Positions 142 to 63,135 of a stretch of 64,000 nucleotides of DNA are shown here, piece after piece. This stretch comes from a virus. A program made the translations under genes and the position numbers. The stretch is taken from the IMG/VR virus record IMGVR_UViG_3300010158_000027, positions 1 through 64,000 of that record. One strand, given 5' to 3'. The first letter of the stretch is position 1; each line of letters opens with the position of its first letter. The notes below the pieces were generated by a model, which saw only the letters and a program-made list of their open reading frames with translations, had not been told where the DNA came from and did not search any database.

Positions 142-552
142 ATGAAAAGAGTAATAAGATTAACTGAATCTGATTTAACAAGAATTGTTAAACGAGTAAT
201 AAAAGAACAATCTTCAGGGGTAGTTAAAGTTAGGGGTTGGGACACGTTAGATGGAATGACTAAAGAAACACATGGTGGGTGGATGCTTGACATCACTAAC
301 ATTCATTTAGAGAATATGGTACTTAAATTTAATTATGCGATTCCTGGAACAACCTCAAAAGGTACTGGACTTACTATGTGTCGTAAGAGTTCAACTCCCG
401 AATACGATTCGATAGCTCTCACAATTAATAATCAAACTCATCAATTATTTTTAACACCAGTAGGCTATAAAAACTTAACTCAGCTGTGTCGCACATATGC
501 AGGTAGAACTCCATCACCTACCGAGACACCAACGAATGGTGACTACGCATAA
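142..552 (+). CDS. Tagged hypothetical protein (MKRVIRLTES family tag)
   Basis: 136 residues, function unknown. Residues 1-23 form the basic amphipathic tag found throughout this window: it begins MKRVIRLTES and ends VIKEQ, so an I-x-E site at 21-23 could be cut by a prohead protease. The remaining 113 residues are predicted mostly beta with one Cys pair and a Thr/Pro-rich tail, and match no family I know. The tag DNA is almost identical to that of the gene at 58376, but the bodies differ. A strong hairpin terminator follows. Probably a virion-internal protein, by inference from the tag only. Confidence 0.8.
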   Translation: MKRVIRLTESDLTRIVKRVIKEQSSGVVKVRGWDTLDGMTKETHGGWMLDITNIHLENMVLKFNYAIPGTTSKGTGLTMCRKSSTPEYDSIALTINNQTHQLFLTPVGYKNLTQLCRTYAGRTPSPTETPTNGDYA

Positions 553-573
553 CTAATATAACATTATACTATT

Positions 574-600
574 GTCCCCATCTCTAATACAGGTGGGGAC
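574..600 (+). terminator. Hairpin terminator, CTAATAC-loop family
   Basis: Ten-base stem GTCCCCATCT / AGGTGGGGAC around the loop CTAATAC, followed by TTTCT. The same stem-loop recurs at 6985, and a relative at 2840. Confidence 0.75.
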
Positions 601-613
601 TTTCTATGCCATA

Positions 614-721
614 AAGTTATTAACATGACAACTTGTCAATGGGGAATCATATATAAGTTATTAACATGACAACTTATTAAGGTAGGGGATAGATAAAGTT
701 ATTAACCTGACAACTTGTCAA
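614..721. repeat. Three direct repeats (iteron-like) with internal palindromes
   Basis: Three 26-nt copies begin at 614, 655 and 696, a 41-nt period. Copies 1 and 3 contain the perfect palindrome TGACAACTTGTCA, and all contain GTTATTAAC, itself palindromic. Copy 2 has lost the TTGTC half. They lie in a 400-nt gene-free gap. The layout fits repeated binding sites for a protein (operator or replication iterons). No function can be assigned from sequence alone. Confidence 0.7.
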
Positions 722-738
722 TAGGGGGGTGCCTATCA

Positions 739-895
739 TATAAACCCCCTCCCTACGTATTTGGCATACCCCCCTCCCCCTTTATGTGTCCCGTATCCCC
801 CCTCCCCTCCTGACATTATGACAGGGTCAAAAGGGGGGACGATACCCAAAACGATGTGTATATATTAAAACCCCCTTTTAGGGTCATATCCTTAA
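739..895. other. Pyrimidine-rich gene-free stretch
   Basis: A C/T-rich run with repeated CCCCCTCC blocks, strikingly GC-rich for this AT-rich genome, with no reading frame of note. It sits between the iteron-like repeats and the promoter of the gene at 954. With the repeats it makes a 400-nt non-coding region that could be regulatory or a replication/packaging site. Confidence 0.5.
797..838. repeat. Nested inverted repeat in the pyrimidine-rich gap
   Basis: CCCCCCT (797-803) pairs with AGGGGGG (832-838), and inside it CCTG (809-812) pairs with CAGG (822-825), so the stretch can fold as a two-step hairpin. Confidence 0.5.
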
Positions 896-938: not shown

Positions 939-953
939 AATAAACAATATACT

Positions 954-1463
954 ATGGGAAAATTTATAATAACTGAATCAGAGAAAAATAACATTCGTTT
1001 ACAATATGGGATAATTAAAGAATCGGATGAGATTGATTTAATTAAAACGGAATTATCTGATAGTGGGGTTTCTATACCTGTTGAAAAAATGATTGATTCA
1101 ACTGAACCATTATGTACATCACCTGAAACGGGTGACCCTATGGAAGATTCTATTTTATCTAAAGTGTGGGAATGGGCTCAGACACAAAGTGTGGAAACAT
1201 TAAAGGATATGAAATCAAAAATTAGAGAGTCTATTAATGTGGCAAAAACTTTAATCAAAAATAAAAGGGTGGATGAACAATCGGCACCCATTCTTATTAT
1301 TGGGGGAATTGGTATTAGTGCTAGTTTATTAATATCCATTGGGGTATTATTGATATTTATAGTAGTTATTGCCATTGTATCAAGATCTTCAAAACGAAAA
1401 AGTCCTTGTCAACGTAGACGTAAGTTAACCAAACGTTACGGTATAGATGGGAACTTTATGTAA
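954..1463 (+). CDS. Tagged protein with C-terminal membrane helix
   Basis: 169 residues. The N-terminal tag MGKFIITESEKNNIRLQYG ends in IIKES (I-K-E site about residues 21-23). A mostly helical acidic middle is followed by a strong hydrophobic segment near residues 116-142 (ILIIGGIGIS... through IFIVVIAIV) and then a very basic tail (SSKRKSPCQRRRK). That makes a single-pass membrane protein, or a peptide able to insert into a membrane. With the tag it could be a packaged protein that acts on the host membrane after ejection; this is inference. Confidence 0.8.
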   Translation: MGKFIITESEKNNIRLQYGIIKESDEIDLIKTELSDSGVSIPVEKMIDSTEPLCTSPETGDPMEDSILSKVWEWAQTQSVETLKDMKSKIRESINVAKTLIKNKRVDEQSAPILIIGGIGISASLLISIGVLLIFIVVIAIVSRSSKRKSPCQRRRKLTKRYGIDGNFM

Positions 1464-1522: not shown

Positions 1523-2068
1523 ATGAAAATCATTATTACAGAGGACCAATACGGACAATTAACTGAAATGATTAAACTTGACATCAAGGTTGGTGATACC
1601 ATAATGGGTGGCAAGTTTAAAAATAAGAAGGTTGTTGTAAAAACAATTGGAAAAAATGATAAGGGAGATATTACAATTAACGGTAAACCTTTATTAAGAT
1701 TCAGAATTATAAAAGAATCCACATCAATTGATAAAAACAAAAATAAGGACTTTTTGACTAATCTCATGGGAATTGACTTTACTGATAAGATTCAGATGAT
1801 AACCTCATCATCTGATGTTCCAAATAGTTTTGATGATGGTATTGCTCCATCAACTATCAAAACATATTTGAATCATTGGGGTCCGATGTATCTTTTTGAA
1901 CTTGATGGTGTAAAATATCTTTATCAAAATAGAGGTGATTTTGAAATGTTTATTGATGAGGACGGATATTGGCATAAAGATGAAATACCTGAAAAACTTG
2001 GTATTGGTATATTGGGGTTAAAGTTCTCAGATATTATTGATATGTATTTTGATGAGGAAAACATGTGA
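1523..2068 (+). CDS. Tagged hypothetical protein (MKIIITE family)
   Basis: 181 residues, unknown function. It starts MKIIITEDQYGQLTEM, shared with the genes at 5682 and 14150. Candidate protease sites are L-T-E at about 13-15 and, after a small basic beta domain, I-K-E (RIIKES) near residue 65. The C-terminal 115 residues form a compact alpha/beta domain with GPMYLFELDGVKYLYQNRGDFEMF, reminiscent of SMI1/KNR4-like immunity folds, though I cannot confirm that. Probably a packaged virion protein. Confidence 0.8.
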   Translation: MKIIITEDQYGQLTEMIKLDIKVGDTIMGGKFKNKKVVVKTIGKNDKGDITINGKPLLRFRIIKESTSIDKNKNKDFLTNLMGIDFTDKIQMITSSSDVPNSFDDGIAPSTIKTYLNHWGPMYLFELDGVKYLYQNRGDFEMFIDEDGYWHKDEIPEKLGIGILGLKFSDIIDMYFDEENM

Positions 2069-2164: not shown

Positions 2165-2749
2165 ATGGGACTTATTATAACGGAAGAAGAAAAAAAATCT
2201 ATTAGGGGAATGTATCTTTTAAATGAAAACCGTACCATACCTCATCTTACAGAGTTATTAAAGAGTTTAGTTTTCAAGGATTTTGATTTGGACTTTAAAC
2301 TCACCCATAAAGGGTTGTTTGGTTATAATAGTTATTTCTTAAAAATTTATCTTGATCCAGAAGTTATGTGTATGTCGGGGGATATGTATGATTCTGATGC
2401 AATCGATTTTTTAGATAACGTGGAGGAAAATATTCATGGGGTATTACCTTATGTTGGTTTGTCCGATTCGGAACTTATGTTGGAGTTTGAGTTTTTAAAC
2501 GATAAAGAATTTTCAAATAAACTTGTTGGTATGGTTAATGGGATTTTTCCCACGTTATATGATAGGATTGAAGATTTGCCCAAGTTGGTTAATATGAAAT
2601 CAAATCAAAATGGTGGTAAACCTGAGTTTAAGATTTCGTTTCGATTTGATAATCGTCCAAAGATGGGTCAAATACAAAGGATGTATGAATATATCCACGA
2701 ATTACTTCCAACCTTTGAGGATGTGTATTTGGATTTTGGGGTGATATAG
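2165..2749 (+). CDS. Tagged hypothetical protein
   Basis: 194 residues. The tag MGLIITEEEKKSIRGMYLLNEN resembles that of the gene at 954 and offers an L-N-E site near residues 19-21. The body is an alpha/beta domain without a family I recognise. It stops at TAG, showing that TAG is a normal stop here. Its promoter region duplicates that of the gene at 954, so the promoter and tag seem to have been copied together. Confidence 0.78.
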   Translation: MGLIITEEEKKSIRGMYLLNENRTIPHLTELLKSLVFKDFDLDFKLTHKGLFGYNSYFLKIYLDPEVMCMSGDMYDSDAIDFLDNVEENIHGVLPYVGLSDSELMLEFEFLNDKEFSNKLVGMVNGIFPTLYDRIEDLPKLVNMKSNQNGGKPEFKISFRFDNRPKMGQIQRMYEYIHELLPTFEDVYLDFGVI

Positions 2750-2972: not shown

Positions 2973-3647
2973 ATGAAAAGAATTATAAGACTTACTGAAT
3001 CACAATTGATTAGTATGGTTAACAATGTTATAAAGGAAATAAATACCGAAAACTCATATATCAATAATCAAGATACCGAACAATATCAAACAAAAAATAC
3101 AAATGTATTTGGTAATTCACCACATTCTAATTTTATTGATTATGGTATTCAATTTATGGGTTCACGTACTAAGGGAATGTATCAGGCTGTTTTTATGAAA
3201 ACCATGCCAGACGAATTCTATTCTTTTGTTAATCAATTTGATGATGAAATCAAAAGTGAAATTTTTGATTCTTTATCTAAAATTTATATTGAATCGAGTG
3301 GCGAATATAATCGCATACATTTTAGAGAAGGGATTCACCCATATTTAAAAGGTATCGGATTGGGGTATATAATATATGAAGCCTTTATCAAATACTTGGG
3401 GTTCGCATCTTCATCTGAAAGCGCAACATCTGATGCTAGAAAAATTTGGGAAAAACTTTTAAATGATCCTGACTTTCATGGTATTGTTTGTGGGGATGAA
3501 AAACAAGGTGGGGTTTTAATATTTGATAAGTCTTATAATGAAAATGTTGAGGGCATTGCAAAAAAATTCTTATCTGAAAGATGTAAACAAAACGCAAAAA
3601 TTGACGATTCATTAATTAAGATGTATCCTAATTTAAATAATATATGA
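2973..3647 (+). CDS. Tagged hypothetical protein (MKRIIRLTES family)
   Basis: 224 residues. The tag MKRIIRLTESQLISMVNNVI ends in IKEIN (I-K-E at about 21-23), followed by an Asn/Gln-rich linker to residue 45 and an alpha/beta body. The segment HFREGIHPYLKGIGLGYIIYEAFI looks like the acetyl-CoA loop of a GNAT acyltransferase (R/Q-x-x-G-x-G/A type), so a GNAT-like fold is possible but unproven. Its stop overlaps the start of the next gene by 4 nt (ATGA), indicating translational coupling. Confidence 0.78.
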   Translation: MKRIIRLTESQLISMVNNVIKEINTENSYINNQDTEQYQTKNTNVFGNSPHSNFIDYGIQFMGSRTKGMYQAVFMKTMPDEFYSFVNQFDDEIKSEIFDSLSKIYIESSGEYNRIHFREGIHPYLKGIGLGYIIYEAFIKYLGFASSSESATSDARKIWEKLLNDPDFHGIVCGDEKQGGVLIFDKSYNENVEGIAKKFLSERCKQNAKIDDSLIKMYPNLNNI

Positions 3648-4335: not shown

Positions 4336-4992
4336 ATGAAACATTTATTAAATGACTTAAGCGAAGAAGAAAAGAATAATATTCGTGAACAACATGCTGG
4401 TGGCATGAAAGTGAGTAACGCTAGATTTAACACATTATTGGAAACAAAATCGGGTGACGTTAAACCTTTTATTTCGGAACAATCTGGATCAATGAAACTC
4501 TCTTCATCTCCTGACTATATAAAGTTAAAACAATATTTTACTGTTGAATATGGTAAAGATAACGAATCACCTACATATGTCGGAAGTGATTACATTATTT
4601 GGAATGAGACACCTATTGGTAATTTTGATAATACAGTTAGATATAATTTGACAGTGGTTAAGTTAAAAACTGTAACAATGAAAGGTGGTCTGGCGGTTCT
4701 ACCCATAAGGGTTGGTACCGTCGACTTTGATTTTATGTCAAAGACTTTTATAAACGAGAAATATGACACTTTTAATGATTATAGCGGGATTAAATATTCA
4801 GTACAAGAAATTAACGATGCGTATTCATCATTCCCCAATGGACTTGACAAATTAGTTCCATCTTATAAGAAAACACAAGAAGGACAACTTATGGTTCAAA
4901 CCTTAAATAAAAATCCAGAATCTTTAAAGTTATTAAAATCGCAACTCACAGGTCAAGCTTTGGAAGTTTATAATGCCTTAACATCATCATAA
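4336..4992 (+). CDS. Tagged hypothetical protein
   Basis: 218 residues from the ATG placed 13 nt after the late-type promoter; the frame is open further upstream, but that part covers the promoter. The tag reads MKHLLNDLSEEEKNNIREQ with an I-R-E site at 15-17, and a second I-S-E-Q site (FISEQSG) lies near residue 50. The gene at 18253 has a similar start (SDEERQQIKQQH). The body is beta-rich. Function unknown; probably packaged. Confidence 0.78.
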   Translation: MKHLLNDLSEEEKNNIREQHAGGMKVSNARFNTLLETKSGDVKPFISEQSGSMKLSSSPDYIKLKQYFTVEYGKDNESPTYVGSDYIIWNETPIGNFDNTVRYNLTVVKLKTVTMKGGLAVLPIRVGTVDFDFMSKTFINEKYDTFNDYSGIKYSVQEINDAYSSFPNGLDKLVPSYKKTQEGQLMVQTLNKNPESLKLLKSQLTGQALEVYNALTSS

Positions 4993-5681: not shown

Positions 5682-6083
5682 ATGAAAATCATTATTACAA
5701 AAAAACAATATAGATCTTTGGTATTTACCCTTTTGGAAACATTGGTGGGTGATATCACCATCGGTGAGTCGACAGGAGATTACTACACTATTTTAGATCA
5801 AGATGGTGAGGATATAATTACCATATGGACTAACATGGATAATGGATGTAAAAATGATTTAACTTTGGGTTTTAGTTTTAGTGAAAGTCTGGAGGTATAC
5901 GTTCCCTACTTTAGAAAAAAGATATTTTCTGAAGTTTTAATTGAATATGTCTATGATCATACCAATATTAAATGTGACTGTATAGATTATCACTATGGAT
6001 TTACTGAGGATGATGGTGGTACAATGGCGAAGGGTCAGTTTTTGTATAACCTTAAAAAGAAAAAAAAGCTTAAATCACCTTAA
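5682..6083 (+). CDS. Tagged hypothetical protein (MKIIIT family)
   Basis: 133 residues. It starts MKIIITKKQYRSLVFTLLET with an L-L-E site at 17-19. The body is acidic and beta-rich with a Cys pair (IKCDCIDYHYGF) and a lysine-rich end (LKKKKKLKSP). Unknown function; the tag suggests a virion-internal protein. Confidence 0.75.
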   Translation: MKIIITKKQYRSLVFTLLETLVGDITIGESTGDYYTILDQDGEDIITIWTNMDNGCKNDLTLGFSFSESLEVYVPYFRKKIFSEVLIEYVYDHTNIKCDCIDYHYGFTEDDGGTMAKGQFLYNLKKKKKLKSP

Positions 6084-6159: not shown

Positions 6160-6399
6160 ATGAAAAAAGTAATAAGATTAACTGAAAGTGAATTATCTCG
6201 TATAATTAAACGAGTAATAAATGAAGCGGAAGAACCTGCAAACGATAATAGTAAAAACGGAACTATAAGTTGCGCAGAAAGACTGAAATCAGAATTTCAG
6301 CCTTTTCGTGCAAATAATGTTGCTTATGGAAATATTAAAGCGGAAAACGGTGGTTTTTCTTTATATAGAGGTTCTGAATTTTTTTGTAAAATTAAGTAA
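6160..6399 (+). CDS. Small tagged protein (MKKVIRLTES family)
   Basis: 79 residues. Tag residues 1-22 (MKKVIRLTES ... VINEA), with an I-N-E site at 20-22. The remaining 56 residues have two Cys (SCAERL and FFCKIK), perhaps a disulfide. One of the shortest cargo bodies in the window. Confidence 0.75.
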   Translation: MKKVIRLTESELSRIIKRVINEAEEPANDNSKNGTISCAERLKSEFQPFRANNVAYGNIKAENGGFSLYRGSEFFCKIK

Positions 6400-6460: not shown

Positions 6461-6958
6461 ATGGATCAAAATATACTAAATGAGATTAACCAAATGAAAT
6501 TTATGTTTGGTTATAAACCAGGGCTCGTGATATCCGAACAAGTTGAATTACCAAAATCAGATACTAACCCGGTGAATGTGATTCCGGACGCTCGTAAGAT
6601 ATCGGAACTTGAGGCAACTATATCTGTAGCTACCAGATCATTGGATGCTATTAAGACCCAAAAAGATGAGCAGTCTAAGAAGGAACAAATATCTGATCTC
6701 CAAACCCGACTGGACGACACTGTAAATAAGATTATAACCCCCGAGTTTAATAAAATGTCAAAGGAACAACAAAAAGTTTTAATGGGGGTGAAAACTCAGA
6801 TAGATACAGAATTAAATAAACTTAAAGGTATTGAGGTATCGGCACCAACCCAAACTAGAACTCCAGATGCTAAGGTGTCCGCGTGGGTTTCGGTGGCTGC
6901 AAGTCTTTTAGCGTTATGCACCAACGTGATAGACAAAATTAAAAAACCATTACAATAA
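6461..6958 (+). CDS. Tagged coiled-coil protein (FGYKPG family tag)
   Basis: 165 residues. The tag is MDQNILNEINQMKFMFGYKP then GLVISEQ, with an I-S-E-Q site at about 26-29. The gene at 11458 has nearly the same tag. Residues 45-120 are predicted coiled coil (SELEATISVATRSLDAIKTQ and following). The C-terminus has a weakly hydrophobic helix (WVSVAASLLALCTNVI). Function unknown. Confidence 0.78.
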   Translation: MDQNILNEINQMKFMFGYKPGLVISEQVELPKSDTNPVNVIPDARKISELEATISVATRSLDAIKTQKDEQSKKEQISDLQTRLDDTVNKIITPEFNKMSKEQQKVLMGVKTQIDTELNKLKGIEVSAPTQTRTPDAKVSAWVSVAASLLALCTNVIDKIKKPLQ

Positions 6959-7280: not shown

Positions 7281-7574
7281 ATGAACTTAAACAACAAATT
7301 AGTTTCAAGAATTGTAAAATCAATTCTTAAAGAACAGGAAGAAGATAAATCAGTTGAGACTTTATTTAACGATAACTCTGTTGAGGTACCTGCGGCTTGC
7401 AAGGCGGACACAAGTAAAGTCCCTTCAGTAGATATAAAGGCATGTGTAAAAGAAACGTTTACAAAGGCTCAAGGTTATTTAAAGGTGTTGGAATTGTTAT
7501 CAGACATGGAACCAGGTTTGAAGACACAAACTTTTGACTTACCAATAGGTGAATCAAAAAAAAGACGATATTAA
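7281..7574 (+). CDS. Tagged small protein
   Basis: 97 residues from the ATG that follows TATTTATA (7259-7266) by 14 nt. The tag MNLNNKLVSRIVKSILKEQ has an L-K-E-Q site at 16-19. The body is acidic, with Cys at ACKADTS and KACVKE, and ends in a basic KKRRY. It resembles small phage proteins of no known function. Confidence 0.72.
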   Translation: MNLNNKLVSRIVKSILKEQEEDKSVETLFNDNSVEVPAACKADTSKVPSVDIKACVKETFTKAQGYLKVLELLSDMEPGLKTQTFDLPIGESKKRRY

Positions 7575-8611: not shown

Positions 8612-8911
8612 ATGAAAAGTAGAAAACAAAAACTAATGGTATCCGTTAACGTATTATCAGAACAAAGATATTTGTATGATAAGTTCTTAAAGAAGGACGA
8701 AGAAAAAAATGACATACCAAAATTACAAGTCTCTTTAATTGAAGGTAGGTTTAGTAAATATAAAGTTAATTTATTTCAAAACGATATTCTAAAAGATAAC
8801 ATGACTGACGAGATATTACAAAAATTAAATCTAAAACGTGAATATGCTAGTCGGGTATCGGCTATGATGGATGTGGATAAAGTCACTTCTGAACAATTAA
8901 AAAACATTTAA
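8612..8911 (+). CDS. Tagged small hypothetical protein
   Basis: 99 residues. The first 18 residues (MKSRKQKLMVSVNVLSEQ) end in L-S-E-Q like many tags here, though the flank differs from the main families. The body is helical and charged. A CTATTTATT motif at about 8579 lies 33 nt upstream. Function unknown. Confidence 0.65.
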   Translation: MKSRKQKLMVSVNVLSEQRYLYDKFLKKDEEKNDIPKLQVSLIEGRFSKYKVNLFQNDILKDNMTDEILQKLNLKREYASRVSAMMDVDKVTSEQLKNI

Positions 8912-9671: not shown

Positions 9672-10148
9672 ATGAGAGATTTATCAAAACAATTTAGTGA
9701 TAGAATATTAAGGTCAATATTGAAGCAACTTGGAGATGCATTCCATGATGAACATAACGGATATAGTGCTCGTGAAAGATACGAAAATGGATATTGTGAT
9801 ATAATCGATGATGTGGTTAAATATTTTGGGGTTAACGATTTAGACTGGGAGGAATATGGATTCTTTTTTAAATTAATAGAATTAAACCCTGACTATGAGA
9901 ATGACGATATCGTCATCAAATTACCAAAATTAGGTTTGTATGATGTTTTTTATGATGTGGAAGAAAGACAATGGATAACATCAACATATAGACACCGAAT
10001 CTACAGTTACGACCAGGGCATGATAAGTGACCAACTACATGGTGACGAAAATTTTGATGTCTTCGACGGCCGTGAGGTTAATACGGAGGTTAGAGATTCG
10101 CAACCGACGGATCAAACCCTTGTTGAGATAATTAAAGTTGAAATGTAA
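9672..10148 (+). CDS. Hypothetical protein
   Basis: 158 residues. TATTTATA at 9659-9666 precedes the ATG by 5 nt. The start MRDLSKQFSDRILRSILKQL is amphipathic and basic like the tags but lacks a clear [ILV]-x-E-Q end. The body is Tyr/Asp-rich, with YDVFYDVEERQWITST. Its last codon and stop overlap the next start (ATGTAATGA). Unknown. Confidence 0.7.
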   Translation: MRDLSKQFSDRILRSILKQLGDAFHDEHNGYSARERYENGYCDIIDDVVKYFGVNDLDWEEYGFFFKLIELNPDYENDDIVIKLPKLGLYDVFYDVEERQWITSTYRHRIYSYDQGMISDQLHGDENFDVFDGREVNTEVRDSQPTDQTLVEIIKVEM

Positions 10149-11431
10149 TGATAAAAAAAATTAATATATCGGAGAATGATAGACAAACCATTTTGTCTAT
10201 GCATAAACTCATTGTTGAACAGTCGGGCGGGATAACTATACAAGGAACGGTTAAAGAAGATACAGAATCTCATGACCCATACCTTAACCTTAATGTAACA
10301 CTATACGATTCAAAGGGGGTTATAGTTGATAAGGGTCGGGCACGAACAGACGAAAATGGGGAATATAAAATGACTATACCTAATTTAGTTCCAGGTAACT
10401 ATACTCTTAAGTTTGGTGGTGGTGACAAGACGAATAATAGACCCATTAAAATCACCTCAGAGACCACTTCCCCCGTTGTTGTTAACATAGACTACAAATT
10501 CACAAGTCAGGAATTAGAACCGGTAACGGTAGAGGCGAAGTCTTACCGTGTCCCAATTTTTAACATTAAAGTTGTGACACCAAGTGGTGAAAATATAGTG
10601 GGTGCGGAAATAGAAATTTACCATAAGAATATCCTTATGAATTACTCAACATTTGTGGGTGGGGGTAATGAGGGCGTAACATTCGACGCAACTACCGATA
10701 CTGTTAATAAAAAAACGTCAGAGGATGGTTTAAAAAATATATGGATTGATTCGGATAAATACCCATACTTTAGTAGTGACAAAGACGACGAAGTGTGTGG
10801 TGAGGAAGAGCGGATTAAAATTGTTGTAAAATACCAAAATGTCCCTGTAGCGAAGGATGTTGAAACTTGTTTAAATAATGGTATGTATATTATTCCTACC
10901 GACGATTCTAAAACCATTAGAGTAAAAATTAAAAAACTACAAGATTTTGAAATCATAATACAACCATCATCACCAGAATCGTTAGATGACACACAAACAA
11001 CAAAGGTAGATTCTCCAAACATCATTTATTCAAAGATAGGGTTTAGAGAATTAATTAAAAAATCAACAGATGAGGGGAAACCCGCCTTTATTTTATTTTC
11101 TAGCAAGGGAGATAGGTTAAGTGATGATTTAATAACCAGACTTAACACAAATGAAGAAACCATTAGTAAACTTAACAATTACTATATACCCGTTAATTAC
11201 GTTGGTAGTGGGTCGGACCCTGAAGGATTTACTTTGGCTGCCGATTCACTAGGGATTTCACAAATACCAGCAATAGTGATAATAGAAGGAAACCCTGATA
11301 ATCGACCAAACAACACTACCCCTCGACCAATTAAAGGTAGTTATACGGAAATAAAAAAAGTCATCGATTTAACAAGTTTTTTTACGAGTCCCAAAAATTA
11401 CTTAACTATAATAAATGATTTATTGAAGTAA
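10148..11431 (+). CDS. Tagged protein with carboxypeptidase-regulatory-like and thioredoxin-like domains
   Basis: 427 residues. The tag MIKKINISENDRQTILSMHK then LIVEQSGG carries an I-V-E-Q site at about 22-25. Residues 28-115 (ITIQGTVKED ... DENGEYKMTIPNLVPGNYTL) are a carboxypeptidase-regulatory/CNA-B-like beta-sandwich. Residues 135-270 form a second beta domain. Residues 290-427 resemble a thioredoxin fold: GKPAFILFSSKGDRLS where the active-site CxxC would be, and ISQIPAIVII with the cis-Pro. Both catalytic Cys are missing, so redox activity is unlikely. Possibly a packaged binding or anchoring protein. Confidence 0.75.
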   Translation: MIKKINISENDRQTILSMHKLIVEQSGGITIQGTVKEDTESHDPYLNLNVTLYDSKGVIVDKGRARTDENGEYKMTIPNLVPGNYTLKFGGGDKTNNRPIKITSETTSPVVVNIDYKFTSQELEPVTVEAKSYRVPIFNIKVVTPSGENIVGAEIEIYHKNILMNYSTFVGGGNEGVTFDATTDTVNKKTSEDGLKNIWIDSDKYPYFSSDKDDEVCGEEERIKIVVKYQNVPVAKDVETCLNNGMYIIPTDDSKTIRVKIKKLQDFEIIIQPSSPESLDDTQTTKVDSPNIIYSKIGFRELIKKSTDEGKPAFILFSSKGDRLSDDLITRLNTNEETISKLNNYYIPVNYVGSGSDPEGFTLAADSLGISQIPAIVIIEGNPDNRPNNTTPRPIKGSYTEIKKVIDLTSFFTSPKNYLTIINDLLK

Positions 11432-11457: not shown

Positions 11458-11937
11458 ATGAAAAAAGATTTAAAAAACGAATTACAAGAAATGAAATTTT
11501 TATTTGGGTATAAACCAGGTAGAGTAATTTCGGAACAAGATATGTCAAAAATGGATATCGATTTAGAAATGGACGATGAGTACGATGTTGATTTTGCTAA
11601 TCCAGATGTTGCTCCGGCTCCATCAAGAGAAAAGGAAAAAGAAAGAGAAAGAACTGCTCCCGATACTGACCCATTCCCTAACCCATTCGATCCTGAACGT
11701 TCTAAAGAATTTAACCCTCTTCCAGATTTACAACCACAAGGTAAAGATAGATTTAGTGATGATGACGATGACGATTATAAAGATCGAAGTATGTATAGTC
11801 CATACTATGGTGATGATGACAATGAGGATATAAATGAACCATTCACTGACGAAGTAGAAAGCGATGAAATCGATAGTGACGACACTAGTAAATCTTTAGA
11901 GGACTTAGTTAGCAAATATTTGAACAAATTAAAATAA
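11458..11937 (+). CDS. Tagged, very acidic low-complexity protein
   Basis: 159 residues from the ATG 13 nt after TATTTATA (11437-11444). The tag MKKDLKNELQEMKFLFGYKP then GRVISEQD closely matches the gene at 6461 (I-S-E-Q site about 26-29). The rest is disordered: Pro/Glu/Lys stretch (PSREKEKERERT), then Asp-rich runs (SDDDDDDYKD), and a helical C-terminus. Very acidic tails occur in phage internal and scaffold-associated proteins. Function unknown. Confidence 0.75.
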   Translation: MKKDLKNELQEMKFLFGYKPGRVISEQDMSKMDIDLEMDDEYDVDFANPDVAPAPSREKEKERERTAPDTDPFPNPFDPERSKEFNPLPDLQPQGKDRFSDDDDDDYKDRSMYSPYYGDDDNEDINEPFTDEVESDEIDSDDTSKSLEDLVSKYLNKLK

Positions 11938-11938: not shown

Positions 11939-12934
11939 ATGAAAAAATGGCAACTATTATACGAATCCCCACCTGTGGGTGATTATTTACCTGATGAATT
12001 CAAGCAACAGGCAAAATTAGCGGGAACAACTCAAGACAGGGATGAAAAATCTCAAAGAAGAAATAAGTTAATGAGTGTTATGCAAAACTTACCTAACCTT
12101 GAGAGAGAAAATAAGGAGGAGCTTCAAGATTTAGCTGTTGAGGCTATTTTTAGAATCTACCCATCGTTAAAAAAGATGGTTGATTCGGGTAAAGTAATTA
12201 TCGACGCTAAATTAGTTTCAAATCCAGGTGGTAGACAAACCCCACAAAACTTTCCATCAAAGGAAATCGAAAAAGTTAAGGAAAAAACACCTAACTTCTC
12301 AGCATTGGAAAAGAAAAGACACTTTCAAAACGCACAAACACAAGCAAGAGCTTGGATTGATGGTTTTAATTACGTTTCAAACTTTATGGATGAGGAATTG
12401 GACGCTATTGACCCACAACTATATGATAAGTATAGAGATTTCACTAAAGGTATCTCCGATTTTTATTGGGACAATGCTGATATGTTAGAAAGGATGGCAT
12501 CAAACGGTGCTGGAAGAATTGCATATTGTGATGTCCTACCAATGGAAGATGGAAAAGTTAAAATTGAGGCTAGAGCCCCACATTTCCCATTACTTGTTCA
12601 CGAATTAGTTAAAGGTGCTGAATATTATAAGACAGCGGCTAGTTTACCAAAGGATCCTGAGGTAAGACAAGCAATAATTAAAAGTACAGACACACATAAG
12701 CACGAAATTCAAAATATGAACTACGGTCGAGAGATTGTTAATAGAATGAGAGGGATTTTAGCCAAAAGAGTGGAAGGATATTTACCAAATATGGAAATTC
12801 AAATCTCAACACAGATGGATATGTTACCTGAAGATAAATATAACGAATATATGGATGCGATTGTTAATAATGATAACGATGGTATACTTGGATTCATAAT
12901 TTTTGCAGAAAAAATAGTAAAACAATTACGATGA
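11939..12934 (+). CDS. Large virion-type protein, short tag-like N-terminus
   Basis: 331 residues. It starts one base after the previous stop. MKKWQLLYESPPVGD gives an L-Y-E site at 7-9, a minimal version of the tag end. The body is helical, with APHFPLLVHELVKGAEYY near residues 220-237; this region looks like a conserved phage motif rather than a zinc protease, since the second His is absent. It sits in a tight run with the acidic protein before it and a tagged protein after it (4-nt overlap). Probably structural or capsid-associated. Confidence 0.7.
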   Translation: MKKWQLLYESPPVGDYLPDEFKQQAKLAGTTQDRDEKSQRRNKLMSVMQNLPNLERENKEELQDLAVEAIFRIYPSLKKMVDSGKVIIDAKLVSNPGGRQTPQNFPSKEIEKVKEKTPNFSALEKKRHFQNAQTQARAWIDGFNYVSNFMDEELDAIDPQLYDKYRDFTKGISDFYWDNADMLERMASNGAGRIAYCDVLPMEDGKVKIEARAPHFPLLVHELVKGAEYYKTAASLPKDPEVRQAIIKSTDTHKHEIQNMNYGREIVNRMRGILAKRVEGYLPNMEIQISTQMDMLPEDKYNEYMDAIVNNDNDGILGFIIFAEKIVKQLR

Positions 12935-13209
12935 GAATAACAGAATCAGATATTAGAAGAATTATTAAAAATGTAGTCAACGAAAACAGTGGATACGTTA
13001 CTGGATTAGCACCATCAGAAAGAACTGAACTTGTTGATGACGTAATTAATAGAATTAATGAGCACGGTACGAAATATATCGTTGAACTTAACAAACTTAA
13101 CTCGGAATTTCCTGTTGAAAAATACAAAAGACAAGACAGAATCAAAAGAAAAGATTTTGAGCTACCTAAAGGGGTTAGAGTTCAGAGTTCTTACTTCAGT
13201 GAAGACTAA
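12931..13209 (+). CDS. Small tagged protein
   Basis: 92 residues, overlapping the previous stop by 4 nt (ATGA). The tag is MRITESDIRRIIKNVVNEN, a shortened relative of the RLTES family with a V-N-E site at 16-18. The body is helical and basic. Unknown. Confidence 0.72.
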   Translation: MRITESDIRRIIKNVVNENSGYVTGLAPSERTELVDDVINRINEHGTKYIVELNKLNSEFPVEKYKRQDRIKRKDFELPKGVRVQSSYFSED

Positions 13210-14149: not shown

Positions 14150-14722
14150 ATGAAAATCATTATAACAGAGTCACAATACCGTTTTTTAATGGAAAATACC
14201 GCTGAAATCGACCATATTTTAGATAAAGTAAGCGAAATAGGGTACGAAAACCTTGAAAATGACGAAAAAAGTACCCTAAATAGGTACTCAGAGTGGTTAA
14301 ATTCGGGTAAAAAGGGAGACTTTATACCCCAAAATACGTCTAAAAGTAACAATTTAGGGGGTGCAGATGACGATTCTGACGACAAATCAGGTAACGAATA
14401 CACCACATATTTACCCGATGGTAGTGGGTTTTCATTCAGATATGACTATTCTGACGTATTAACGGAAGAAATACTTCATTACGGGGTAGTAAAATACCAT
14501 GGAGAGGACTGGTCGGGGTTAATTGCCACCAATAACAATGGTAAAATCACTGAAATTGACTTTGTTTTGGAGTCAAATGGGTTCCAATCTTATGATTCTA
14601 ACGATGAATTGGGTAGATATGACGAAGAAAAAGAAGTTAGACTACAAGATGTGTTAGGTAATGATTTACATCAAGTTAAATACTTCCTACAAGAAGAGGT
14701 AATTTCCGATTTAATGGATTAA
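14150..14722 (+). CDS. Tagged hypothetical protein (MKIIITE family)
   Basis: 190 residues. The tag MKIIITESQYRFLMENTAE has an L-M-E site at 13-15. TATTTATT ends 3 nt before the ATG. An Asp/Ser-rich linker (DDDSDDKSGNE) near residue 70-80 separates an N-terminal helical part from a beta-rich C-terminal part. It overlaps the end of the convergent PAP2 gene by 12 nt. Function unknown. Confidence 0.75.
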   Translation: MKIIITESQYRFLMENTAEIDHILDKVSEIGYENLENDEKSTLNRYSEWLNSGKKGDFIPQNTSKSNNLGGADDDSDDKSGNEYTTYLPDGSGFSFRYDYSDVLTEEILHYGVVKYHGEDWSGLIATNNNGKITEIDFVLESNGFQSYDSNDELGRYDEEKEVRLQDVLGNDLHQVKYFLQEEVISDLMD

Positions 14723-15337
14723 ATCATTGTCTTTTAAGTAATCAAACATTGTTTTAGCCAACTTTTTACCTGCCTTTATATCTGAAGGGTAGTGTGCTTT
14801 AGCCATTTGTCTGGATTGTGTGATATCCTTCACTATCTTTTTAAAGTCTTTCTCGTATTTAGGGTAAAACTTAGTTAGAATTAACCCTAAAAGGTTAGAT
14901 TGGGTTGAATGTCCTGACGGATATGCGTAACCACTCATCGATTTCATCGACATATCATCTAATTTATCATCTAATTTAAATGGTCTGGGTCTTTTAAAGT
15001 GCTTTTTTAGTATACGTATTACTTTAGTCGCGTCCTGTTTAATCTTTTTTAATAATTCCTTATCGTACTTTATACTTTTACTATCTAAAAAATCAAAAAA
15101 GTTACCCACCACGTCATCCTTCTCTTGAACGAACTTTTTATCTAAATCCAAAGTGCTTAAATGTTCTATTTCTTTTTTAGTTTCTTCACTATCGTCTTCA
15201 GGTGGTGTTTGATTTTTAAATGAATCCACATCAAAATCTTTAAATATGTTATCTTCGGGTACGTCATTATTTATTGATTTACCTTCATTTAACAACATTA
15301 ATAATTTAATTCTATTTATTTCTTGGAGTATGTACAT
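14711..15337 (-). CDS. Tagged PAP2-type acid phosphatase
   Basis: 208 residues. N-terminal tag MYILQEINRIKLLMLLNEGK (L-N-E at 16-18), an acidic linker to about 80, then a PAP2 domain with all three motifs: KKHFKRPRP (111-119), YPSGHS (139-144) and SRQMAKAHYPSD (175-186), with the catalytic His of SGHS and HYPSD. Family members remove phosphate from lipid phosphates, undecaprenyl pyrophosphate or small esters. No membrane spans are visible, so it is the soluble type. It is the one clearly tagged minus-strand gene, and it has the late-type rather than the host-type promoter. Confidence 0.88.
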   Translation of the reverse strand: MYILQEINRIKLLMLLNEGKSINNDVPEDNIFKDFDVDSFKNQTPPEDDSEETKKEIEHLSTLDLDKKFVQEKDDVVGNFFDFLDSKSIKYDKELLKKIKQDATKVIRILKKHFKRPRPFKLDDKLDDMSMKSMSGYAYPSGHSTQSNLLGLILTKFYPKYEKDFKKIVKDITQSRQMAKAHYPSDIKAGKKLAKTMFDYLKDNDLIH

Positions 15338-15363: not shown

Positions 15364-15954
15364 ATGATAACAAAAAAAGATTTACTAAATAAGAAGTTCT
15401 ATAATTCTCCAATTTTAGAACAAGAAGAGTCTGAGGAAAACGACGAAAAAAATGAAGGAGGTAGAGTTAAACTTTATAAATTAAGTGAAAGTGTAATTAA
15501 CATTTTAACTGATAGAATTAAAGACGAATACACTGCACATTATTACTATAGAGCGGCAACTAATTGGTGTGAAGATATGAATTATAAAAAAGCTGCGGAA
15601 TTCTTTAAAAATGAGGCTAAAGACGAACTGAAACATTCACAGAAAATTCAAGAGTACATGGTTGGGTTTAATATTATTCCAGAAATCCCTCAAGCACCAA
15701 CAAAACATACGTTTAATAGTTTAATTGATATTATTAATGGAGCATATAAAATGGAGTTAGATTTAATGAATGAATATAATAAAAACTCACAAGACTTAAT
15801 ATCTGAAGACATTACAACATTTGATTTTTTAACTGAATTTAGAGAAATTCAAAAAGGTGCTGTTGTTGAATACAATGATTTAATTAATGCAAGTGAATTG
15901 GTTAATATGAAAGATAAATTCCAAGTACTTTATTTCGAGCAAACTTATTTTTAA
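15364..15954 (+). CDS. Tagged ferritin-like diiron protein
   Basis: 196 residues. The first 20 residues (MITKKDLLNKKFYNSPILEQ) end in I-L-E-Q, followed by an acidic linker (EESEENDEKNEGG). Residues 38-190 are a four-helix ferritin-like bundle: DEYTAHYYYRAATNWCED (E55), FKNEAKDELKHSQ with the E88-x-x-H91 ligand pair, MELDLMNEY (E131/E137) and FREIQKGAVVEY (E161/E169). This fits non-haem ferritin or rubrerythrin-like proteins that oxidise Fe(II). If the tag directs packaging, iron-binding protein travels inside the capsid. The gene after it begins 5 nt downstream. Confidence 0.85.
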   Translation: MITKKDLLNKKFYNSPILEQEESEENDEKNEGGRVKLYKLSESVINILTDRIKDEYTAHYYYRAATNWCEDMNYKKAAEFFKNEAKDELKHSQKIQEYMVGFNIIPEIPQAPTKHTFNSLIDIINGAYKMELDLMNEYNKNSQDLISEDITTFDFLTEFREIQKGAVVEYNDLINASELVNMKDKFQVLYFEQTYF

Positions 15955-52221: not shown

Positions 52222-53406
52222 ATGTTTAAAAAAAGGTTTATATACGAACAAGAGGAAGAGGAAGTCGAATTAAATGACTTTCAAAAAATCCTAGCACTTC
52301 ATAAAAAAAGAATGCATCCAAATCAGGTTGAGTTTTTTAATTCGGAAGGTAAGGATTTTTCAGATATTATATCAATCAATTACGATGGGATTACCTTCAA
52401 TTTTAATGATTTACAGGAATATTTAGAGTTCTTTTTTCCAGAAATATATGGTGTGGATGGTTCCGATGGGGCCTACGAGGCTGAGTACTTCCAACAGATG
52501 TATAATGGAAATTGGAGCTGGCATAACGAATATTGGGATAGATCTACTGATGATTGGAATGAGGGGTATATTGTTGGAGCAATGAAAAGTCAAAGTTTAG
52601 AGACATTAAAAGAAATTATAGATGCGGTTTCGCCTGGTGATAGTAAATGTATTGTCTTTAAAGATGGGGAGTATGTATTGGATAACTCTAGCGATAAGTC
52701 TAACGCCGAAACAACCATTACGTCAATTTTAGAAGGTTTGGGGGTTGAGGATAAGATAAAGGAAGCATATGTTGATGCTCAAGTGGACGCTGTGAGTGAT
52801 GAAGTCTCTAAATATATTGAAGACACCTATGGTGATTGTTTTTCTGAACTTGGAATTGAAAACGATTCGGCAAGACACTTTTTTTGGAAATATTCAATGG
52901 ATTGGGGTTCTATGGTTTTATTGTTTGCTCGTTTTGGTACTGAAAACGATAGTTTTTTAGACTTACTTTTTGAAGCGATTAACGCCACAGCGATTAAACA
53001 TCTTCCAGAATATTATGAAATGCAATATAACGTTTGGAATGAAGAAAAGTTCACTAAAACATATGTCAATGAACTAAGTACCATTTTTGATAAACTATTA
53101 ATTGAGGTATCTGAAAACCACAATAAAGGGTATTATGAAGCTATTTCAAAGATTACAAAAATCGGTGGGTTTAATACCTGGATAACCTCTAAAAATGAAA
53201 AAGTTAAACTTATGATTAGAAATCTTGATCCCGAAACCCTAAAAGTTGATTTTTCTGTTATCAATGGTAATTATGGTTCTTGGCATTCAAAAAAAGGTAG
53301 ATCTACCGTTGATGAAATAATCAACCTACTCTATAATGAAAGTATGTTTGATGTTGAGGATTTCAGGGAACATTATTTAAGATTTATTCAAAAGACGATT
53401 CTTTAA
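52222..53406 (+). CDS. Tagged hypothetical protein
   Basis: 394 residues. The short tag MFKKRFIYEQEEEE has an I-Y-E-Q site at 7-10, and TATTTATA (52209-52216) lies 5 nt before the ATG. The body is acidic and helical with Trp/Tyr-rich stretches (YNGNWSWHNEYWDRSTDDW). No motif known. Its end overlaps the convergent peptidase gene by 30 nt. Confidence 0.72.
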   Translation: MFKKRFIYEQEEEEVELNDFQKILALHKKRMHPNQVEFFNSEGKDFSDIISINYDGITFNFNDLQEYLEFFFPEIYGVDGSDGAYEAEYFQQMYNGNWSWHNEYWDRSTDDWNEGYIVGAMKSQSLETLKEIIDAVSPGDSKCIVFKDGEYVLDNSSDKSNAETTITSILEGLGVEDKIKEAYVDAQVDAVSDEVSKYIEDTYGDCFSELGIENDSARHFFWKYSMDWGSMVLLFARFGTENDSFLDLLFEAINATAIKHLPEYYEMQYNVWNEEKFTKTYVNELSTIFDKLLIEVSENHNKGYYEAISKITKIGGFNTWITSKNEKVKLMIRNLDPETLKVDFSVINGNYGSWHSKKGRSTVDEIINLLYNESMFDVEDFREHYLRFIQKTIL

Positions 53407-58375: not shown

Positions 58376-58939
58376 ATGACTAGAATAATAAGATTAACAG
58401 AATCCGATTTAACAAGAATTGTTAAACGAGTAATAAAAGAACAAACCACTATGCCCCCAGTAACGGTTACCGCTCAGAGAACACAAAAACTGGAAGACAC
58501 TAAATTCACACCAAAACTATTTAACAAAATAACCGCGGCGAAGGGATTGGAGGTTACGGCATCAATAAAAAGTACTGACCCTACTACACGTAAACTTGAT
58601 ATTAAGCCTATTATGTGGAAAATAACACCATCGATAGTTAAAATTAAAGACAATAACGCTAAAGTGGTTAGAGTTCCTGGTATGTTAAACTTAAATATCG
58701 AACTAGAGGGTATTAAAGATACTTTTGTTATAGTTAAACTTAATTGTAGAACTGGTCAGATTGATTATGTAAATAAATTAATCCAAAACACGTATGATAA
58801 ATCACTGTCATTAGTTGCTGCAAATATGCCACCTTTTACAACCACAGTTAACGGATTCGCACAAACATTTAATAACAGTGGTTGGAAATACGTTGGTGCG
58901 ATTAAAGAGGTTGGTGATATGTATTGTAAATCTGTTTAA
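58376..58939 (+). CDS. Tagged hypothetical protein (MTRIIRLTES family)
   Basis: 187 residues from the ATG 13 nt after TATTTATA (58355-58362). The tag MTRIIRLTES ... VIKEQ matches the gene at 142 in 21 of 23 residues and is nearly identical in DNA (39 of the last 39 bases). The body begins TTMPPVTVTAQRTQKL and is beta-rich, ending with a Cys (MYCKSV). Different from the body at 142. Probably packaged. Confidence 0.8.
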   Translation: MTRIIRLTESDLTRIVKRVIKEQTTMPPVTVTAQRTQKLEDTKFTPKLFNKITAAKGLEVTASIKSTDPTTRKLDIKPIMWKITPSIVKIKDNNAKVVRVPGMLNLNIELEGIKDTFVIVKLNCRTGQIDYVNKLIQNTYDKSLSLVAANMPPFTTTVNGFAQTFNNSGWKYVGAIKEVGDMYCKSV

Positions 58940-60673: not shown

Positions 60674-60716
60674 TTAGTAAATTACTAAATTACAATATAT
60701 TTATATATAAAAAAAT

Positions 60717-60908
60717 ATGCCAACAACAGCTTGTACTGACAATTATTATAATACCGTTTTGGTGGGTTACGTACCCGGCACCGGTAATACTACGGGTAAT
60801 ATAGTAACATTTAAAACCCCTAAACCCGAATGGACAGACGAAACAGGACAACAATCAAAACAATGTAATGGTATTGCTCTTGGTGGCTTTGATGGACTAA
60901 ACAATTAA
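60717..60908 (+). CDS. Small hypothetical protein
   Basis: 63 residues (MPTTACTDNYYNTVLVGYVP), Gly/Thr/Asn-rich, with two Cys. TATTTATA (60698-60705) is upstream. It lies before the acidic structural-type gene. Possibly a small virion protein. Confidence 0.6.
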   Translation: MPTTACTDNYYNTVLVGYVPGTGNTTGNIVTFKTPKPEWTDETGQQSKQCNGIALGGFDGLNN

Positions 60909-60921
60909 AAAATAAAATAAA

Positions 60922-62181
60922 ATGGCAGATTTAAGACCCTTAGGTAGTGAAAAATTACAAGGTATGGATAAAATAAAACGTATAATGGAAATTGCACGTT
61001 ATAACGAATCACCTAAACAGGAAATTAACGAACTTTCAACTACGAACTATACAATTAAATTATCTGATGGTAATACATATGCTATAGTAAAAGAAAAATT
61101 AGGGTATATCATTAAAAATGGTTTAAATGAATCAACTTTTGAATATTCAGAACCTATTAGACATAGAAAATACTATCGTTCATATTCTGAAGCGATGAAA
61201 AAACTAAACCTAATGGTTGTTGAAATTAATAGAACTACAGGTTTTGAGGAAAACGTACCACTTATCGGAGAACAACAATCTGATACAAAAAAAAAATTCA
61301 TTTTAAAAACACCTAAACCAAAAAACGACGCGTCAATACCCTCACCGGTAGCCGCTTCTGAACCACCAATGGCTCCACCAATGGCTCCAACACCACCTGC
61401 TGATGATATGGGAACAACTCCACCACCAGCTGATGATATGGGAATGTCACCAGCAGATGATATGGGTGTTCCTCCTTCTGATGATATGGGAACGCCACCA
61501 GCAGATGATATGGGAATGGATCCTTCTGATGATATGGGAATGGATCCTTCTGACGATATGGGTGAAGACGATGAGGAAGCTCAAGGACCAATGGGGTTAA
61601 AGTCAATTCAAAAATTGACAGGAAAGTTAAGTCAAAAAATTAGAGCCTTCGATAAAGAAAAAGGTTTAGATTCTCAAGACATTAAATACGTTTTAAACTC
61701 AATCATTTCGGCTTTAGATTTAGAGAATTTAGATGAAGACGATAAAGATGACGTTCTTTCAAAATTTGATGAGTCAGATGAATATGGTGAAGAAGGGCCT
61801 GGAGACTTAGATTTTAAAGACACAGATACGGAAATGGGTGTGGAAGGTGATGAACCTACAGACGAAGAGTACCCACAACCACCAGTTAGTGAATCTTCAG
61901 TAGATAAAGTTTTAACTAGTTACTTCAATATTAAATCAACTGAAAAACCACTAATAGAAGAAAAAAGAAAAAAAGATTATTTAAAAAACAAATTAAATAA
62001 ACTATCAGTTAAGTCTGAAATCGGAAGGCTTAGTGAAAGTAATTCACAATCGGACGCAGCGTTATCCATTATGGAAAACTATGAAGGGGCTAAGTTCATT
62101 GGAAAAACGAATAAAGATAATTTAATATTTGTGATTGAAGATAAACAATACAAAGTAACACCAGCAGGAAGAATTTTATGA
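60922..62181 (+). CDS. Acidic scaffold- or core-like protein with DDMG repeats
   Basis: 419 residues. Residues 1-115 are alpha/beta; then LIGEQQSD (about 114-121) gives an I-G-E-Q site like the tag ends and like T4 gp21 targets. Residues 140-215 are Pro/Asp-rich with seven P-x-D-D-M-G repeats. An acidic helical C-terminal half ends in TPAGRIL. Acidic, helical, low complexity and close to the terminase gene, it could be a scaffold or prohead core component; this is inferred. Confidence 0.68.
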   Translation: MADLRPLGSEKLQGMDKIKRIMEIARYNESPKQEINELSTTNYTIKLSDGNTYAIVKEKLGYIIKNGLNESTFEYSEPIRHRKYYRSYSEAMKKLNLMVVEINRTTGFEENVPLIGEQQSDTKKKFILKTPKPKNDASIPSPVAASEPPMAPPMAPTPPADDMGTTPPPADDMGMSPADDMGVPPSDDMGTPPADDMGMDPSDDMGMDPSDDMGEDDEEAQGPMGLKSIQKLTGKLSQKIRAFDKEKGLDSQDIKYVLNSIISALDLENLDEDDKDDVLSKFDESDEYGEEGPGDLDFKDTDTEMGVEGDEPTDEEYPQPPVSESSVDKVLTSYFNIKSTEKPLIEEKRKKDYLKNKLNKLSVKSEIGRLSESNSQSDAALSIMENYEGAKFIGKTNKDNLIFVIEDKQYKVTPAGRIL

Positions 62182-62597
62182 TTTTAGTTTATGTAAACGA
62201 GTTAGGACCAAACTATAAAGGCGATAATATATATGAATTTATATTTTCAGATTTAGATGATGTTTGGGGTGAGGATTGGGATTCGGAACCAGCAGCTGGA
62301 AAACCGTTACCTCCTGAAATGAATTACATAAAAAAAGTTGGGGTTTTAAAGAACTCAGAAATTGAGTTAAACCTTATACAAAATTCAGATTTTTTTGGGG
62401 TTTATGATGCAATTGATGGAGTTATATCGTTGGCGTGGGAAAGATCCGATAGTGATGATATATTAATACATAAAAGAAAACGATTAGTATTTCAATATGG
62501 AGATAGTGTTGAAATAGTTGAGAATAAATTATACGAAAGAGATATCGTATTAAAATGGGAAAAAAACTTAGTACAAGATGAAACATATGAATCCTAA
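62178..62597 (+). CDS. Conserved phage protein of unknown function
   Basis: 139 residues, overlapping the previous stop by 4 nt. The start ILVYVNELGPNYKGDNIYEF followed by SDLDDVWGEDWDSEPAAGKP looks like a small conserved protein of T4-type phages of marine hosts, but I cannot name it. It sits in the run that leads to terminase, suggesting a role in head assembly or packaging. Confidence 0.68.
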   Translation: MILVYVNELGPNYKGDNIYEFIFSDLDDVWGEDWDSEPAAGKPLPPEMNYIKKVGVLKNSEIELNLIQNSDFFGVYDAIDGVISLAWERSDSDDILIHKRKRLVFQYGDSVEIVENKLYERDIVLKWEKNLVQDETYES

Positions 62598-63135
62598 ATT
62601 ATCAAAACTTCTTCATGAAGGTTTTTCAATTAATACACTTGAGTCGTTAAATGACTCTCAATTGAATGTTTTATACGAAAGAGTTAAAGGTTCAAAAAAA
62701 GAAACAAAGGAGGAGGTAACTAAAACTACCACAACGACTTCATATAACCCACAAGAAGTCAAAGGTAAGACATTCTCTAAAACTGATGATGTTAATGTTA
62801 CCATAAAACAAGATGGTTCTGTCGACGTAACTAAAGAAGGTGAGGTAACTGAAAAGGCAATATCCAAAAAACAACAAGAATTTTTTGGACTCGTTAGAGG
62901 AATGCAAAAAGGAACTACACCAAAAAAAGGTAAAGCTGGTGAAGCGGCAAAAGAAATGAAAAAGAAAGATGTGAAAGATTTCGCATCAACAAAACACAAA
63001 GGGTTACCAACTAAAGTTAAAGAAAAGGATAACGTAAAAAAATTAGAGGAAAGTATTTTACGTTTAATCGAATCACACTTACCTCCCCACACAACTAAAG
63101 GGGAACTTTTAAGTGTGATAAATAAAAAAAAGTGA
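62578..63135 (+). CDS. Tagged basic protein upstream of terminase
   Basis: 185 residues; a second ATG three codons in (62587) is an equally good start. MNPKLSKLLHEGFSINTLES offers an L-H-E site. Then a Lys/Thr-rich disordered stretch (SKKETKEEVTKTTTTTSYNP), a short beta part, and a basic helical C-terminus. It overlaps the previous gene by 20 nt and lies 3 nt before terminase. It could be the small terminase partner by position, but no helix-turn-helix is evident. Confidence 0.65.
   Translation: MKHMNPKLSKLLHEGFSINTLESLNDSQLNVLYERVKGSKKETKEEVTKTTTTTSYNPQEVKGKTFSKTDDVNVTIKQDGSVDVTKEGEVTEKAISKKQQEFFGLVRGMQKGTTPKKGKAGEAAKEMKKKDVKDFASTKHKGLPTKVKEKDNVKKLEESILRLIESHLPPHTTKGELLSVINKKK

Follow-up and report, generated by a model that had tools for sequence, protein, structure and literature searches.

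The first 64,000 bases of the virus record IMGVR_UViG_3300010158_000027 (hereafter the window; the whole record totals 281,269 bases) encode 23 proteins that begin with a short N-terminal tag ending in a site of the [ILV]-x-E type. Judging from their sequences, these tags are very probably cleavable capsid-targeting propeptides of the kind carried by the internal proteins of phage T4, present on about 50 genes of this genome and divided into several interchangeable families. The terminase large subunit, the portal protein, a head maturation protease and a gp23-type capsid protein are encoded just downstream of the window, and for this reason the virus is regarded as a T4-like jumbo phage. Since about 50 unrelated proteins bear interchangeable tags that end at the expected cut of a capsid protease, a large head cargo is likely, and the phage would probably load this protein set into its head and deliver it into the bacterium with the DNA. 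A capsid-targeting system had been proposed in the first-pass annotation of the window, and the sequence data reported here support that interpretation.

Five tag families were distinguished (A, RLTES; B, MKIIITES; C, MKxLIxxILKEE; D, LNEIxRxK; E, ITEEEKxxI), in addition to minimal seven-residue forms such as MKKLIKE. The tags are 7-26 residues long and end in [ILV]xE, and many of them hold two candidate sites, for instance RLTE↓S and VIKE↓Q (the arrow marks the predicted cut). The first-pass annotation had counted about 25 tagged proteins, which agrees with the 23 that have a usable site plus the product of the open reading frame (ORF) starting at 18253, whose tag lacks an [ILV]xE. The twelve N-termini that it listed as ending in [ILV]-x-E-Q were all recovered at the starts given, where about two would be expected by chance: [ILV]xEQ is found within the first 50 residues in 12 of the 68 window ORFs, against a mean of 1.9 and a maximum of 7 in 1000 composition shuffles, and in none of 56 when residues 51-100 of the same proteins are considered. 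At the scale of the whole genome, 30 of 280 ORFs score at least 50 against another ORF without body homology over residues 1-40, against 2 of 280 over residues 41-80, and the density of [IL]xE at residues 7-18 is 2-3 times that found past residue 30, with no such gradient for [ILV]xD, Ex[ILV] or total glutamate. The N-terminal [IL]xE enrichment is also seen in the relatives G001 (somewhat weaker) and G002, and is weaker still in the Flavobacterium phage immuto.

Tags common to unrelated bodies were found in four phages. Hidden Markov models (HMMs) of the five families, a search that the first-pass annotation had called for, match 48 N-termini in this genome, 46 in G001 and 24 in G002, with no match at 8 bits or more among decoys made of internal segments of the same proteins; when applied at 9 bits to the 5,273 ORFs of the fetched contigs, they gave 941 tagged proteins and 23 decoy matches in total. 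Their distribution along the genome is uneven: 17 of 38 genes are tagged in the first 26 kb, none of 19 in the fibre/glycosyltransferase block (26.1-57.5 kb), in line with the first-pass remark that the fibres and the glycosyltransferase are untagged, and one of 85 in the tail block (84-190 kb). The tag set is thus present in the window, as originally described, but is not confined to it, since a further 24 were detected by HMM at 205-281 kb. C-tagged paralogues are repeated at genome positions 219063, 234691, 276823 and 278038, several of them near the contig end, with a body of the form LKHNLKQQIKDYGWxDTAEMVNGSKELAKL; a comparable array of MKYLITESQ paralogues occupies the ends of G001. A 412-kb contig (G018, L509-L528) carries about 7-8 A-type tags of a 26-residue form together with S77 protease and gp23 genes. 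The possibility that the A tag is a feature of host proteins was rejected: its pattern gave only 16 matches in genome_contigs, of which the majority were very short, lay inside a protein or did not resemble the tag, and the approximately five that look real (L497, L501, L503, L505 and L508) are all on contigs of metagenome-assembled genomes.

At the level of sequence, the boundary between tag and body behaves as a protease site would: P3 and P1 are fixed, P2 can vary and conservation stops at P1. When IMG/VR was searched with a DNA pattern in which residues 1-9 of tag A alone were fixed, 132 non-redundant proteins were obtained, and their bodies are unrelated. Of these, 129 have I, V or L at residue 20 and 109 have E at residue 22, with a variable residue between the two; the information content is 2.84 bits at residue 22 and has dropped to 0.35 by residue 24. 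Several exceptions contain one extra helical turn that places the E at residue 26, a form that recurs in 412-kb phages. HMMs trained on three genomes with P3-P1 left out were applied to other contigs. At an offset of exactly three residues from the end of the shortened model, [ILVM]xE was present in 196 of 342 proteins of family A, 16 of 18 of family C and 74 of 251 of family B (another 25 of family B had it at +4); in A and B, each position further downstream gave about 6. A similar tendency was seen in families D and E, where the spacing varied. Two AlphaFold models place the tags in low-confidence regions, with a helix at residues 7-16 that ends at the P1 glutamate in a DHH-type protein and a helix at residues 7-30 that continues through the site in the product of ORF 14150-14722.

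The same bodies are found joined to different tags. Members of the family of ORF 14150-14722 carry either B tags (FLME↓N, FLVE↓N) or A tags (VINE↓N, NIINE↓S, NVINE↓G), and E15 does not vary among them; the tag of the SRYMFFSNLEQM protein is of type C here and of type A on its equivalent in L016. Among 80 orthologues of the DHH protein (224433), P3 is I or L, P1 is E and P1' is S in all 80, eight residues occur at P2, and the N-termini differ widely (MKKLIKE↓SGLR, MKKIVKLTESELTQVIKRMITE↓SGIR, MKDFVIKILTEESKLFLKE↓SGIR). Orthologues of the ferritin-like protein (15364) have many unrelated leaders, many of which end in [ILM]xE, often followed by Q, and ferritins of the PDB mostly align to it from about residue 40 onward. 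Between the protein encoded at 21257 and its G001 counterpart the sole meaningful match is that of residues 1-25, and the alignment ends at the E. Within the A tags, 150 of 399 matched identical codon positions differ synonymously; a DNA-level element overlapping the start codon is therefore unlikely, because the amino acids are shared while the codons differ.

A gp21-like protease, on whose presence the first-pass annotation had made its interpretation depend, is encoded 5.6 kb beyond the window: an S77 protease at G000:69745-70164 matches PF03420 (E 6.9e-24) and the head maturation protease of PHROGs (phrog_207, E 1.7e-43). It was found in 24 of the 36 tag-bearing contigs and in 11 of the 11 that reach at least 220 kb. 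All 12 contigs devoid of the protease are also devoid of gp23, so the head module is simply missing from them. The major capsid protein is of the gp23 type (PF07068, E 1.1e-61) and its close relatives are very common in IMG/VR (at least 599 confirmed). It contains a site of the same kind, ENQAS[HYF]LINE followed by A (once by S), which is invariant in 81 of 81 sequences and whose LINE↓A aligns in register with LTE↓A of T4 gp23 and VSE↓A of immuto. An E-rich ORF of 495 amino acids between the protease and capsid genes is a candidate scaffold at the gp22 position. In this neighborhood, the portal gene (genome 64957-67734; L002:2957-5731) holds an HNH-endonuclease insertion with intein-like borders, probably an intein; the portal of the relative G001 is shorter (598 amino acids) and appears uninterrupted. 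A probable ribosomal protein S21 gene was recognized by eye in G001 between portal and protease (L098:9230-9415, minus strand; G001:66230-66415), an arrangement that is the one described for bS21 phages infecting Bacteroidetes (PMC9723584).

The tagged genes also share an upstream element. TATTTAT is present within 40 nucleotides of the start in 25 of 45 tagged genes and in 54 of 274 others (p 2.4e-6), and it is likewise enriched on tagged genes in G001 (p 2.4e-7) and G002 (p 3.9e-4); the untagged genes that have it include those of the protease, the scaffold (about 44 nucleotides upstream) and the sheath. TATTTAT(A), which mostly lies 11-24 nucleotides before the start codon (e.g. window 6461, 1523 and 23338; genome 69583, 70666 and 130754), may act as a late promoter, in which case the leader would be very short. 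A possible phage sigma factor (genome 201764-202582, DEIQIYLKDIRKLKVMTPEREKVLA) is a candidate reader of this element.

The recognizable cargo comprises a PAP2 phosphatase, a ferritin-like protein, a phage lysozyme, two peptidoglycan-binding proteins, a carboxypeptidase-regulatory-like protein and a phosphoesterase of the DHH/DHHA1 type whose nearest folds are RecJ/PAP-phosphatase-like, with low TM-scores. The unrelatedness of the bodies, asserted from the first reading of the window, was borne out by Pfam for the PAP2, ferritin-like and peptidoglycan-binding folds. Scans of Pfam and PHROGs matched no family for most of the other bodies, and none of the scanned bodies matched the T4 internal protein families.

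The T4 protease gp21 cleaves behind L/I-x-E; for IPIII, ten residues are enough to bring about both targeting and processing, and an aspartate at its position 10 prevents the processing while leaving the targeting intact (PMC9026906). The T4 protein Alt is cut at ITE-6 (PMC5694885). IPII and IPIII have an identical MKTYQEFIAE↓A, after which they diverge. The system described here resembles that of IPI, IPII, IPIII and Alt in having a short N-terminal propeptide that ends in L/I-x-E on different bodies, an S77 protease and, in the gp23-type capsid protein, a matching cut site. The seven-residue tags (MKIIITE↓, MKKLIKE↓) recall the Alt site, and MKTYKKRINE↓A of G001 resembles the T4 sequence. 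Nevertheless, T4 has about four such genes, whereas there are 48-55 candidates here, with at least five tag families and minimal forms that are swapped between bodies, and the residue after the cut is often Q or S instead of the A of IPII and IPIII. Phages phiKZ and SPN3US also possess many internal proteins from which a prohead protease removes N-terminal propeptides and which are believed to be ejected. Yet their motif is A/S-x-E, their protease belongs to MEROPS S80, their propeptides mostly measure 111-254 residues and only nine cleaved substrates have been identified in SPN3US; neither A/S-x-E nor propeptides of more than 100 residues characterize the tags studied here, and the phiKZ/SPN3US literature that was read reports no exchangeable family of short tags. 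In phage P1, the N-terminal 30 residues of DarB suffice to send a foreign protein to the capsid, but the N-termini of the Dar proteins have no consensus and no common tag family; the Pfam and PHROGs scans of the tagged proteins gave no match to a Dar family, a result obtained with no direct Dar comparison. Another parallel comes from the cultured T4-like relative immuto (host Flavobacterium sp. LMO8), which has an annotated prohead protease and gp23, as here, and small sets of tags of its own that terminate in [ILV]xE or a triplet like it (MENFDLKKFLVENxLTxNSxLLKE, MKKQILSEQFxRMQxLAGIITE and MKKSQLRxIIKE), although its tag sequences are different and it has roughly ten tagged genes compared with about 50. 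The immuto families lie at 102294-118931 (NC_055915), the majority in a cluster immediately before the terminase. The tags would thus represent an expanded, modular variant of the T4 system, with all of its sequence-testable defining features, the scaffold being represented by a candidate. No earlier description of such an expansion in T4-like phages of Bacteroidota was found in the open-access literature, subscription papers being outside the search.

The common tags, the modular joins, the junction site, the protease and the matching site of the capsid protein can be read directly from the genomes; from them we infer late expression, core binding, cleavage, packaging and ejection. The tagged proteins would be made late from the promoter-like element that they have in common with virion genes, and the basic or amphipathic tag would bind the prohead core, drawing the protein inside before the shell closes. 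The S77 protease would cut after [IL]-x-E at maturation, in the step in which the major capsid protein is also trimmed. Once released, the bodies (PAP2, ferritin-like, lysozyme, peptidoglycan-binding and DHH phosphoesterase, together with many unknowns) would remain in the head and enter the host along with the DNA. Several observations weigh against this scenario. About 40% of the B-tagged proteins have no second site near the tag end; their one remaining site, like that of a G001 paralogue array, is IITE↓S at residue 7, which is comparable to the Alt site of T4. In addition, ORF 18253-18762 has a tag and no site; and the ORF starts used throughout were inferred from the ORFs. The candidate scaffold had no match in the PHROGs scan and its [IL]xE density is only modest (2.0 vs 1.24 per 100 residues), a comparison that was dropped as uninformative in a glutamate-rich protein. 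Finally, a literature search brought to light no proteomic data on the virions of this phage or of any close relative, and motif enrichment carries no information on ejection.

Other explanations of these data were considered. The most serious of them, which we consider a minority possibility, is that the tags are cleaved prohead-core propeptides and that most tagged proteins are structural or core components acting in head assembly only. T4 IPIII does affect head morphogenesis (PMC9026906), TATTTAT is common to tagged and virion genes and one tagged gene (83713) adjoins tail genes. Nevertheless, such a role would be at odds with the enzyme-like bodies (PAP2, ferritin, phage lysozyme, DHH) and with a cargo that varies widely between relatives (390 body clusters in the 941 tagged proteins), as conserved head parts do not. 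It is improbable that the tags are uncut localization signals, such as amphipathic helices binding membranes or assembly sites: they are basic and helix-prone, as in the low-confidence DHH model, yet the invariant P3 and P1 around a free P2, the halt of conservation at the E, the identical junction under different tags and the matching capsid site would all be left unexplained.

Descent from one old paralogous family whose bodies diverged is even harder to sustain. Some tagged genes are clear paralogues (the C-tag array near 219-279 kb), but whole-gene paralogy was ruled out by bodies of unrelated folds, by the occurrence of one body under different tags in different phages and by the synonymous codon differences. 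Chance would have a negligible part: a short degenerate motif is easily met in AT-rich, lysine- and glutamate-rich N-termini and, in line with the caveat of the first-pass annotation that [ILV]-x-E alone is common, about 108 of 320 shuffled N-termini have [IL]xE in residues 5-35. The observed number, however, is 146 of 320 (shuffle maximum 135), the EQ form is likewise in excess in the window, and both the fixed-offset tests and the 80 of 80 conservation among orthologues refute chance.

The tags of the window are listed in Table 1. The window also encodes a fibre-like protein with very long GTSGTSG repeats (27907-30447).

Table 1 Predicted N-terminal tags in the window. The arrow marks the predicted cut; ORF starts are inferred
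Tag	Strand	ORF	Family	Tag sequence and predicted cut	Basis and remarks
142-207	+	142-552	A	MKRVIRLTESDLTRIVKRVIKE↓Q (VIKE↓Q)	HMM A; site at residue 22
954-1022	+	954-1463	E	MGKFIITESEKNNIRLQYGIIKE↓S	HMM E; site at residue 23
1523-1567	+	1523-2068	B	MKIIITEDQYGQLTE↓M	HMM B; also IITE↓D at residue 7
2165-2227	+	2165-2749	E	MGLIITEEEKKSIRGMYLLNE↓N	HMM E
2973-3038	+	2973-3647	A	MKRIIRLTESQLISMVNNVIKE↓I	HMM A
4336-4389	+	4336-4992	E	MKHLLNDLSEEEKNNIRE↓Q (NIRE↓Q)	HMM E; second FISE↓Q at residue 48
5682-5738	+	5682-6083	B	MKIIITKKQYRSLVFTLLE↓T	HMM B
6160-6225	+	6160-6399	A	MKKVIRLTESELSRIIKRVINE↓A	HMM A
6461-6538	+	6461-6958	D	MDQNILNEINQMKFMFGYKPGLVISE↓Q (VISE↓Q)	HMM D
7281-7334	+	7281-7574	C	MNLNNKLVSRIVKSILKE↓Q (ILKE↓Q)	HMM C
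8612-8662	+	8612-8911	no HMM family	MKSRKQKLMVSVNVLSE↓Q (VLSE↓Q)	Site only
10148-10219	+	10148-11431	E	MIKKINISENDRQTILSMHKLIVE↓Q (IVE↓Q)	HMM E; carboxypeptidase-regulatory-like domain (Pfam); C-terminal part thioredoxin-like according to the first-pass annotation
11458-11535	+	11458-11937	D	MKKDLKNELQEMKFLFGYKPGRVISE↓Q (VISE↓Q)	HMM D
12931-12984	+	12931-13209	A (shortened)	MRITESDIRRIIKNVVNE↓N	HMM A
14150-14194	+	14150-14722	B	MKIIITESQYRFLME↓N	Orthologues have A-type tags joined at the same E
15284-15337	-	14711-15337	D	MYILQEINRIKLLMLLNE↓G	HMM D; PAP2 phosphatase (PF01569, E 2.1e-7)
15364-15420	+	15364-15954		MITKKDLLNKKFYNSPILE↓Q (ILE↓Q)	Ferritin-like (PF00210, E 3.8e-18)
	+	18253-18762	E-type	Recognizable tag without [ILV]xE	HMM E, 11.8 bits; decayed or exception
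19078-19131	+	19078-20658		MKLINEIKEIRRLINLIE↓N	PG_binding_1, endolysin-like (PF01471, E 2.1e-12)
20994-21041	+	20994-21260		MNKLRNDIKKILKLME↓V	Site only, L-M-E
21257-21331	+	21257-23299		MKKLNEELIRQLLLMNFDSSKVLSE↓Q (VLSE↓Q)	PG_binding_1 (Pfam)
23338-23406	+	23338-26052	D	MEDKLLNEINRFREITKLPLLTE↓Q (LLTE↓Q)	HMM D; 904 amino acids
52222-52248	+	52222-53406	short tag	MFKKRFIYE↓Q	Site only
58376-58441	+	58376-58939	A	MTRIIRLTESDLTRIVKRVIKE↓Q (VIKE↓Q)	HMM A

In a broader formulation, to which we give an even chance, the tags would constitute a portable export code with which T4-like jumbo phages, mostly of Bacteroidota, make almost any protein into head cargo, each virion delivering tens of different proteins upon infection, in a set that is reshuffled by tag swaps. 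The distinct tag families may address different positions in the head or different amounts. If the interpretation of the tags as cleavable capsid-targeting propeptides is correct, a tag ending in [IL]xE together with an S77 protease would predict the head cargo of huge phages that are very abundant in the environment and in the gut, and would provide the first functional hypotheses for hundreds of unannotated proteins. It would also indicate what these phages deliver ahead of gene expression, possibly including counter-defence enzymes, and would extend the protein-delivery principle of T4 to a naturally modular tag set that could be used in phage engineering.

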